Assembly: GCA_022511295.1 (NCBI GenBank)
Contig: JAFLRT010000008.1
Coordinates: 1 to 41,876 of the forward strand
Length of the DNA stretch: 41,876 nt
Direction: 5' to 3'
Source: Alistipes sp.
GTDB taxonomy: Bacteria > Bacteroidota > Bacteroidia > Bacteroidales > Rikenellaceae
The notes under the pieces were generated by a model. The model saw nothing but the letters and a program-made list of their open reading frames with translations, was not told the DNA's origin and made no database searches. Shown here one piece after another: positions 35 to 719 of this stretch (the first letter of the stretch is position 1; each line of letters opens with the position of its first letter). The position numbers were made by a program, and so were the translations under genes.

Positions 35-349
35 TTAGTCGCATTTCGACCCGACTACTGAGGATACACTAGATTTTGCTCCCGGACTACCCAAGTTTAC
101 TGTGGTCTCGCTGTGCGGCGGAACCATTTTGGTAATAGTGCGAAGACTTGAGCCAACATATACTTTAGCCGTTATATTTACATATTGGTCAGTGTCATTA
201 GCAAATGTAACGATTACGCCATCATCCGAATCAAACGAATTGACAACAACTGTACCTGTTGTACCTGAGACTCTGCAAGTTTTATAGTCGTCTGCATAAA
301 CGGATGCAAAACATATAACGGATAAACACATTAAAAATAACTTTTTCAT
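35..349 (-). CDS. small secreted protein, 104 aa, unknown function
   Basis: Clear N-terminal signal peptide (MKKLFLMCLSVICFASVYA), beta-rich mature region, two cysteines in the mature part (near N- and C-termini). Confidence 0.65.
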   Translation of the reverse strand: MKKLFLMCLSVICFASVYADDYKTCRVSGTTGTVVVNSFDSDDGVIVTFANDTDQYVNITAKVYVGSSLRTITKMVPPHSETTVNLGSPGAKSSVSSVVGSKCD

Positions 350-472
350 GATTTTTTCTTTTTATTTTTATTCCATACTCACTTAACGGCTTTTCAGGTT
401 ACTCCGTTTGTACCTTGTTGGTTTAGACAGAATACACACATAAAAAAACGCAGGTACTTTTTAAGAATATCC

Positions 473-591
473 CCTCTCAAAGGTGTTTGGCGTAACCCAG
501 CAGGAAGAATACTAAAAAGCCTGCGCCTTACATAGCGCAAACATTCAGCAATATTCTTTCCTGCTTTTAAGTCGCCAAACTTTTTGAGAGG
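473..591. repeat. long imperfect inverted repeat / hairpin element
   Basis: Arms: CCTCTCAAA (473-481)/TTTGAGAGG (583-591); GTTTGGCG (485-492)/CGCCAAAC (573-580); AGCAGGAAGAATA (499-511)/TATTCTTTCCTGCT (552-565, one-base bulge); inner GCGC/GCGC (523-526/535-538). Confidence 0.85.
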
Positions 592-688
592 CAGAATAAA
601 ACTAAAACGTTTTTTCAATATTTACAATGTGCGTATCAAATACGCTAATGTTTCATAGGCTAATCTGTTATTTGTTTTATTAATAATA

Positions 689-719
689 CAAAAGTATAAA
701 ATTATTTCTATAGCACAAA
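689..719 (-). promoter_or_regulatory. Bacteroidota-type sigma promoter reading towards the inverted repeat
   Basis: Minus strand: TTTG (719-716), N19, TACTTTTG (696-689); exact match to TTTG-N19-TAnnTTTG. Confidence 0.65.

Follow-up and report, generated by a model that had tools for sequence, protein, structure and literature searches.

A conserved leader RNA of roughly 230 nucleotides ahead of secreted-protein genes in Bacteroidota, a candidate transcription attenuator

The locus beside fmt and its relatives

The window, meaning the whole stretch of 41,876 nucleotides of Alistipes sp. that was analysed (contig JAFLRT010000008.1, assembly GCA_022511295.1), carries a structured region near its start, next to the fmt gene. 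An earlier note on this DNA had described, on the minus strand just past the fmt stop, an exact promoter, a near-palindrome of about 119 bp, a T-tract and a small secreted protein with two cysteines, and all four were found where it had placed them:

731-1696: fmt gene, its stop 12 bases before the TTTG promoter element begins on the minus strand
719-689, minus strand: Bacteroidota-type promoter TTTG-N19-TACTTTTG, assigned from its sequence (TTTG at 719-716, TACTTTTG at 696-689)
about 682-680, minus strand: predicted transcription start from the 689 promoter
about 660-433, minus strand: the whole RNA element, roughly 230 nt
591-473, minus strand: long hairpin (the near-palindrome)
454-442, minus strand: T-rich stretch CCTGCGTTTTTTT
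448-442, minus strand: U7 tract; a T-rich tract is found in nearly all homologs
349-35, minus strand: downstream coding sequence (104 aa); the protein has a signal peptide, and its mature part contains two Cys

Folded as RNA, the minus strand from 690 to 440 reached a minimum free energy (MFE) of -76.7 kcal/mol (z -5.7), a value equalled by 0 of 200 shuffled sequences. The palindrome is missing from the repeat-finder output for the locus because its arms are gapped relative to each other. Several further features were absent from the earlier note: a mini-ORF at 656-645, an alternative terminator stem, long-range pairings, a DUF805b-type motif at 407-372 and paralogs in the same genome.

The title of that note had also guessed at a repeat element, and the RNA indeed belongs to a repeated family, with seven strong copies and one weaker copy in the window genome. 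A search of this genome with 361 bases recovered three further leaders (contigs C91, C127 and C108) sharing the opening sequence, the hairpin architecture and the T-tract; their hairpin sequences differ partly or wholly, and each stands before a different small secreted protein. Three more diverged copies were found by a covariance model, R1, and the eighth, weaker one by a broader model, R2 (L196, 600-1000; E 2.5e-4). This last copy has a terminator pairing of its own, GTGTGG:CCACAC, and a secreted protein downstream. Three leader contigs of the genome (C138, which is the window, C127 and C108) end inside or just past the downstream gene, which suggests strain-variable or repeated sequence there.

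The opening motif CCTATGAARCATTAGCGTA, allowing up to two mismatches, was present in 33 of 268 genomes of the same family, a few of the two-mismatch matches being chance. Its exact form occurs in 47 stretches of public Bacteroidales genomes, named Alistipes, Rikenellaceae, Muribaculaceae, Bacteroidaceae, Paludibacteraceae, Barnesiella and others. The copies fall into two core types, A (GTTTGGCG/CGCCAAAC, as in the window) and B (e.g., CTTCGAC/GTCGAAG). R1 was built from type B copies only, with the 5' bases included, and scored the type A copy of the window at 123 bits (E 1e-22). The large searches were limited to about five scored candidates for each genome, which makes their genome and genus counts lower bounds: R1 matched at least 137 of 393 sampled Bacteroidales genomes and at least 83 of 207 genera, and R2 at least 53 of 396 genomes of a phylum-wide sample that included other orders and classes of Bacteroidota.

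Covarying helices of the RNA

Seven helices, P1-P7, were counted in the covariation analysis; P1 and P2 close the element, and P3-P7 make up the long hairpin, with P6 weak in the window copy. An eighth pairing, P8, reaches across the U-tract. On the minus strand of the window they lie as follows:

635-627: P1 5' strand TACGCACAT, pairing with 441-433 (partner consensus ATGTGYGTA)
441-433: P1 3' strand ATGTGTGTA, directly 3' of the U-tract
615-608: P2 5' strand AAAAAACG, pairing with CGTTTTTT of 450-442
591-583/481-473: P3, from covariation and MFE
580-573/492-485: P4, type A core GTTTGGCG/CGCCAAAC, from covariation and MFE
565-552/511-499: P5, from covariation and MFE
542-535/526-519: P7, apical, from covariation and MFE
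457-410: P8, GTACC (457-453) with GGTAC (414-410) across the U-tract, only in read-through RNA

Across 88 aligned copies, 92.5% of the cells were paired, as against 73% after shuffling, and compensatory changes were seen in 50 of 54 pairs. Both sides had changed in 1001 cells compared with 299 ± 19 in shuffled data (0/500), and sliding the partners lowered the paired share to 35-53%. The 88-copy alignment was fitted to the model; a MAFFT alignment, which was not, gave the same answer (129 double-change cells vs 43 ± 5), the shuffle tests in both cases leaving the relatedness among copies in place. The earlier note had read the region as a candidate structured leader or stand-alone RNA and had made this depend on the preservation of stems at homologous loci; compensatory change does hold them, as expected of a cis-acting leader.

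The long-range helices behave in the same way. P1 showed change on both sides in 7 of 9 pairs in one alignment (A4) and 8 of 9 in another (A6), and permuting its partners between copies gave 0/5000. P2, which hides the U-tract by pairing with CGTTTTTT, had both-side changes in 8 of 8 pairs and was 96% paired (A6); an interrupted T-tract is matched by an interrupted A-tract. For P8, the own pairing run averaged 4.72 vs 3.96 on permutation (0/5000); it is significant in type A, while type B alone, in which the P8 sequence is nearly invariant, gave 373/5000. The internal loops between P4 and P5 are also conserved, and some ligand or protein may bind there.

These data bear on two other readings. 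If a plain terminator, or else a short coding region (a 74-aa ORF at 618-394), had been mistaken for something special, this would account for a hairpin with a U-tract and for the one frame open in the window. We regard it as very improbable: all three frames are blocked over the core in 102 of 108 Bacteroidales copies, copy lengths fall in all classes modulo 3, and a terminator needs neither conserved internal loops nor long-range helices. P7, the apical stem, has a CTTTTT behind it on the minus strand (520-511) and scores as a terminator-like site, a feature that type A copies share.

The palindrome might alternatively act as DNA, in a mobile or recombining repeat (REP- or MITE-like, or a cassette site), and the many copies, their patchy distribution, the unrelated genes behind them, the three contigs of the window genome that break off within the downstream gene or shortly after it and two hairpin-deleted copies (L029 and L084) would fit such a repeat. 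We consider it improbable, since the compensatory changes follow one strand sense, G-U pairs are used, the T-tract and the mini-ORF lie on one strand, and the order promoter, leader, gene is constant. Searches of phage and plasmid collections and of viral contigs in IMG/VR (by exact pattern) gave no match. The copies that have lost the hairpin are located at L084 (6555 onward) and L029 (1501 onward). The L084 deletion has GCGTAT direct repeats as its exact end points, which palindrome slippage would give, and joins the mini-ORF to the DUF805b motif. An intron-like excision, considered for L084, was dropped because of these repeats.

Genes behind the leader and the DUF805b motif

The promoter of the earlier note recurs at homologous loci: TAnnTTTG lies within 80 nt upstream of 81 of 107 copies, compared with 7 expected from shuffling. 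In 101 of 103 Bacteroidales copies an ORF on the same strand begins no more than 200 nt after the RNA, as against 43 of 103 for an outward ORF on the other side, so that a promoter, the RNA and then a gene on the same strand follow each other as in a cis-acting leader, one of the two readings that the note had offered. The downstream proteins have a median length of 136 aa (n=105), and a simple heuristic gave 88 of the 105 in Bacteroidales (~84%) a signal-peptide-like or lipoprotein-like beginning. Otherwise they are mostly unrelated, few have a Pfam family, and no function common to the downstream genes was found that would name a ligand or metabolite.

For the 104-aa protein of the window, two further genomes of the genus yielded relatives, with 43% and 38% identity, and both of these, the closest relatives found, also stand behind a leader copy. 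It is predicted to be a beta-sandwich; a structure search returned weak beta-sandwich matches only, none at E <= 0.001. A link of the leader to a single protein family, DUF6567, was rejected, as R2 found the leader at 1 of 21 DUF6567 loci. Since DUF6567 proteins mostly lack the leader although the relatives of the 104-aa protein have it, the association of leader and gene is loose over long times. In other orders, three copies (L132, L138 and L145) lie about 425 nt upstream of TonB-linked outer-membrane-like proteins, with no ORF close by. A diverged copy (L097, 1501-3231) precedes a non-secreted protein of 230 aa and then a gene that by eye resembles a WYL-type regulator, possibly as part of a defence-related operon.

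One further conserved motif lies 3' of the U-tract, ahead of the gene:

407-372, minus strand: DUF805b-type motif (RF02914), about 25-60 nt before the start codon

The window motif scores 18.8 bits, below the cut-off of 35.6, and that of the C91 paralog 50.3 bits, above it; the motif covers the 3' flank of the RNA only. A lone DUF805b motif (L088, G000:C140:3059-3094; 33.1 bits) precedes a lipoprotein-like gene that has no copy of the large RNA in front of it. In L051 and L075 a second motif lies between the first and second gene, as if there were one per gene. A gene cassette, an idea prompted by these two loci, was dropped: the transcription units behind the copies are ordinary ones, and DUF805b is also found on its own.

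Competing folds and a model of attenuation

The 3' half of the RNA can also fold without the 5' half. The 3' strand of P7 (GCGCAGG in the window, commonly GCGUGGG) complements the bases adjoining the U-tract on its 5' side (CCUGCG in the window, commonly CCCACGC), which gives a terminator-like stem, T, alternative to P7:

525-514, minus strand: T 5' strand CGCAGG + CTTTTT, pairing with 462-449
462-449, minus strand: T 3' strand AAAAAG-TA-CCTGCG, immediately before the U-tract

The pair CGCAGG:CCTGCG is shared by the window and the C91 paralog, and elsewhere its place is taken by GTACGG:CCGTGC, GCGCGAG:CTCGTGC, GCATGGG:CCCATGC, GCGTGGAGG:CCTTCACGC, GCGTGAT:ATCACGC or ATCGTG:CACGAT. Own partners scored 18.6 vs 16.6 ± 0.3 for permuted ones (0/5000). 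In an independent alignment of 37 3' halves, both sides had changed in 20 cells vs 6.7 ± 2.1 (0/500); when T was slid, only 0-5 such cells were left. T adjoined the U-tract in the folds of all 60 non-redundant 3' halves; folded alone, 3' halves had a mean z of -4.0, which changed to -1.3 when the T strands were removed, and the T arm of the window 3' half reached -24.9 kcal/mol. T and P7 are mutually exclusive through their common strand, 526-519, so that, as in an attenuator, a stem next to the U-tract excludes another conserved stem. T also has bases in common with P2 and P8 and crosses P3-P6. In the window, changing CCTGCG would break T, and changing GTTTGCGC would break P7. The loop of T is long, unlike those of textbook terminators.

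T is predicted to terminate transcription. The closed fold of the window (-80.3 kcal/mol) is far more stable than T together with a separately folded 5' part (about -52.5 kcal/mol), so that T would need fast local, kinetic folding or a factor on the 5' half, for which the conserved internal loops next to P4 would be the obvious binding site.

The earlier note had left a choice between a leader and a stand-alone RNA ending at the T-tract. Because a conserved alternative terminator stem precedes the tract, both outcomes are plausible: a leader if the polymerase reads through, a short RNA if it terminates. That the short product is the point of the element, a trans-acting small RNA with the gene merely a neighbour, seems to us unlikely. 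The promoter, the compact structure and the terminator-like 3' end with stem T would suit such an RNA, against which stand the closely following same-strand gene (101 of 103 copies), the conserved structure that runs past the U-tract (P8 and DUF805b) and the fact that no conserved single-stranded seed was noticed.

At the 5' end, a start-stop mini-ORF provides the most conserved bases and overlaps a local hairpin:

656-645, minus strand: mini-ORF ATG AAA CAT TAG (MKH*) in the context GCCT-ATG, of a type enriched in Bacteroidales homologs
645-631, minus strand: hairpin H1, GCGTA (645-641)/TACGC (635-631), overlapping the mini-ORF stop

In diverged copies the codons, length and stop vary, and an ATG with a stop within a few codons is kept. 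The variants include ATG TAG, ATG TAA, ATG GAA TAA, ATG AAG TAA, ATG GTA TAG, ATG AAG CAT TGA, ATG AGT AAA TAA and others, and thus range down to ATG-stop without a codon between, with exchange of TAG, TAA and TGA. Counting only copies found by the model and not by the motif, 22 of 27 Bacteroidales copies had a mini-ORF vs 7.4 ± 2.3 after dinucleotide shuffling, and among lower-scoring Bacteroidales copies it was 11 of 20 vs 4.0 ± 1.6; R1, which covers the 5' bases, may favour the ATG but not these stops. Outside Bacteroidales no enrichment was seen (4 of 19 vs 4.3 shuffled). With 1-5 codons of varied sequence, the mini-ORFs do not show the codon content of a leader peptide.

The 3' arm of H1 is also the 5' strand of P1. 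In one and the same permutation test, own pairing exceeded permuted pairing for H1 (12.33 vs 10.81, 0/5000) and for P1 (17.33 vs 14.0, 0/5000); since both covary and use one strand, they are genuine competitors. A second hairpin, H2, as a conserved competitor of P2 was unsupported (428/5000).

Comparison of homologous sequences has established the structures and their covariation, the strand competition of T with P7 and of H1 with P1, the mini-ORF enrichment and the position before genes. The element is probably a transcription attenuator in the form of a cis-acting 5' leader RNA, in which the long hairpin would mean read-through and T termination. Transcription would begin at the 689 promoter. 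In the read-through form the 5' half would pair with the 3' half into the long hairpin P3-P7; in the off form the 3' half would fold on itself, GCGCAGG pairing with the CCTGCG before U7 into the intrinsic-terminator stem T. P1, P2 and P8 each need bases that lie within the U-tract or 3' of it, so none of them can form until the polymerase has moved on, and all come too late for the first termination decision, which must then be T versus P7. In read-through RNA they would close round the hairpin, mask the U-tract and the terminator strand and so keep the mRNA switched on. A ribosome sitting on the mini-ORF of Bacteroidales copies, which from known footprint sizes should cover H1, would open this hairpin and release the P1 strand, so that translation initiation there would favour the closed form; acting through the mini-ORF, the ribosome would be the lever.

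The same helices allow a different emphasis, in which translation or mRNA stability is what the leader controls: the closed P1-P8 fold together with DUF805b would govern ribosome access or decay, and the U-tract would serve only P2. Consistent with this, P2 keeps the U-tract paired with covariation down to its interruptions, P1, P2 and P8 exist in read-through RNA only, and the motif at 407-372 lies close before the start codon. We give this a minor chance: it leaves unexplained the covariation of the apical strand with the bases ahead of the U-tract and the high stability of lone 3' halves.

Going further, one may picture an undescribed, phylum-wide, ribosome-gated RNA switch, in which the mini-ORF reports initiation or termination at AUG-stop, through H1 versus P1, to a 230-nt attenuator that in turn governs how strongly many rapidly changing secreted proteins of Bacteroidota are expressed; we offer this tentatively, as the less probable case. 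If right, a major phylum of guts, soils and waters would rely on a single large, uncatalogued RNA device, frequently present many times in one genome, for the control of secreted and surface proteins whose regulation lacks explanation. It would also offer testable base pairs (T vs P7, H1 vs P1), make the start-stop mini-ORF a candidate sensor, and account for long palindromes of a kind that an annotation pipeline would dismiss as terminators.

Attenuators of the trp, his and ilv type combine a short 5' ORF, mutually exclusive folds and a terminator stem with a U-tract before the gene. All of these are found here, but the ORF has 1-5 codons and no run of regulatory codons, the genes mostly encode secreted proteins of unrelated sequence, and one conserved 230-nt fold is maintained across the phylum. 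The large conserved leader with its conserved internal loops, many copies per genome and alternative terminator likewise recalls terminator-type riboswitches, from which it differs by the mini-ORF in Bacteroidales and by having no Rfam match.

Minimal ORFs of one to a few codons are known from the lambda bar minigenes. A two-codon minigene occurs in the axe-txe operon (PMC8708949). The mini-ORF resembles both in standing, with its one to few codons, before a regulated gene; unlike them, it is coupled to a competing hairpin in a giant leader and conserved across many genera.

No Rfam 15 family matched the 230-nt RNA at the scanned loci, except DUF805b at the 3' flank; a near-match to ncr1241 (E 0.2) was attributed to chance. 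The DUF805b RNA forms the 3' flank of many copies, but it is a motif of 35 nt that also occurs alone, and the 230-nt RNA is separate from it. We call the latter an attenuator-type leader RNA that is absent from the resources searched. Flavo-1 (RF01705), likewise a widespread candidate RNA of this phylum, had no match in the homologous loci scanned; a flavobacterial transcriptome reported structured leaders and Flavo-1 matches without a function (PMC9723704). A human microbiome study lists palindromic Bacteroidetes candidates of 80-132 bp (HMP2_4205, HMP2_1032 and HMP2_1065) as predicted terminators (PMC8040213); going by the description given for them there, they resemble the present RNA in being palindromic and lying near genes in Bacteroidetes.
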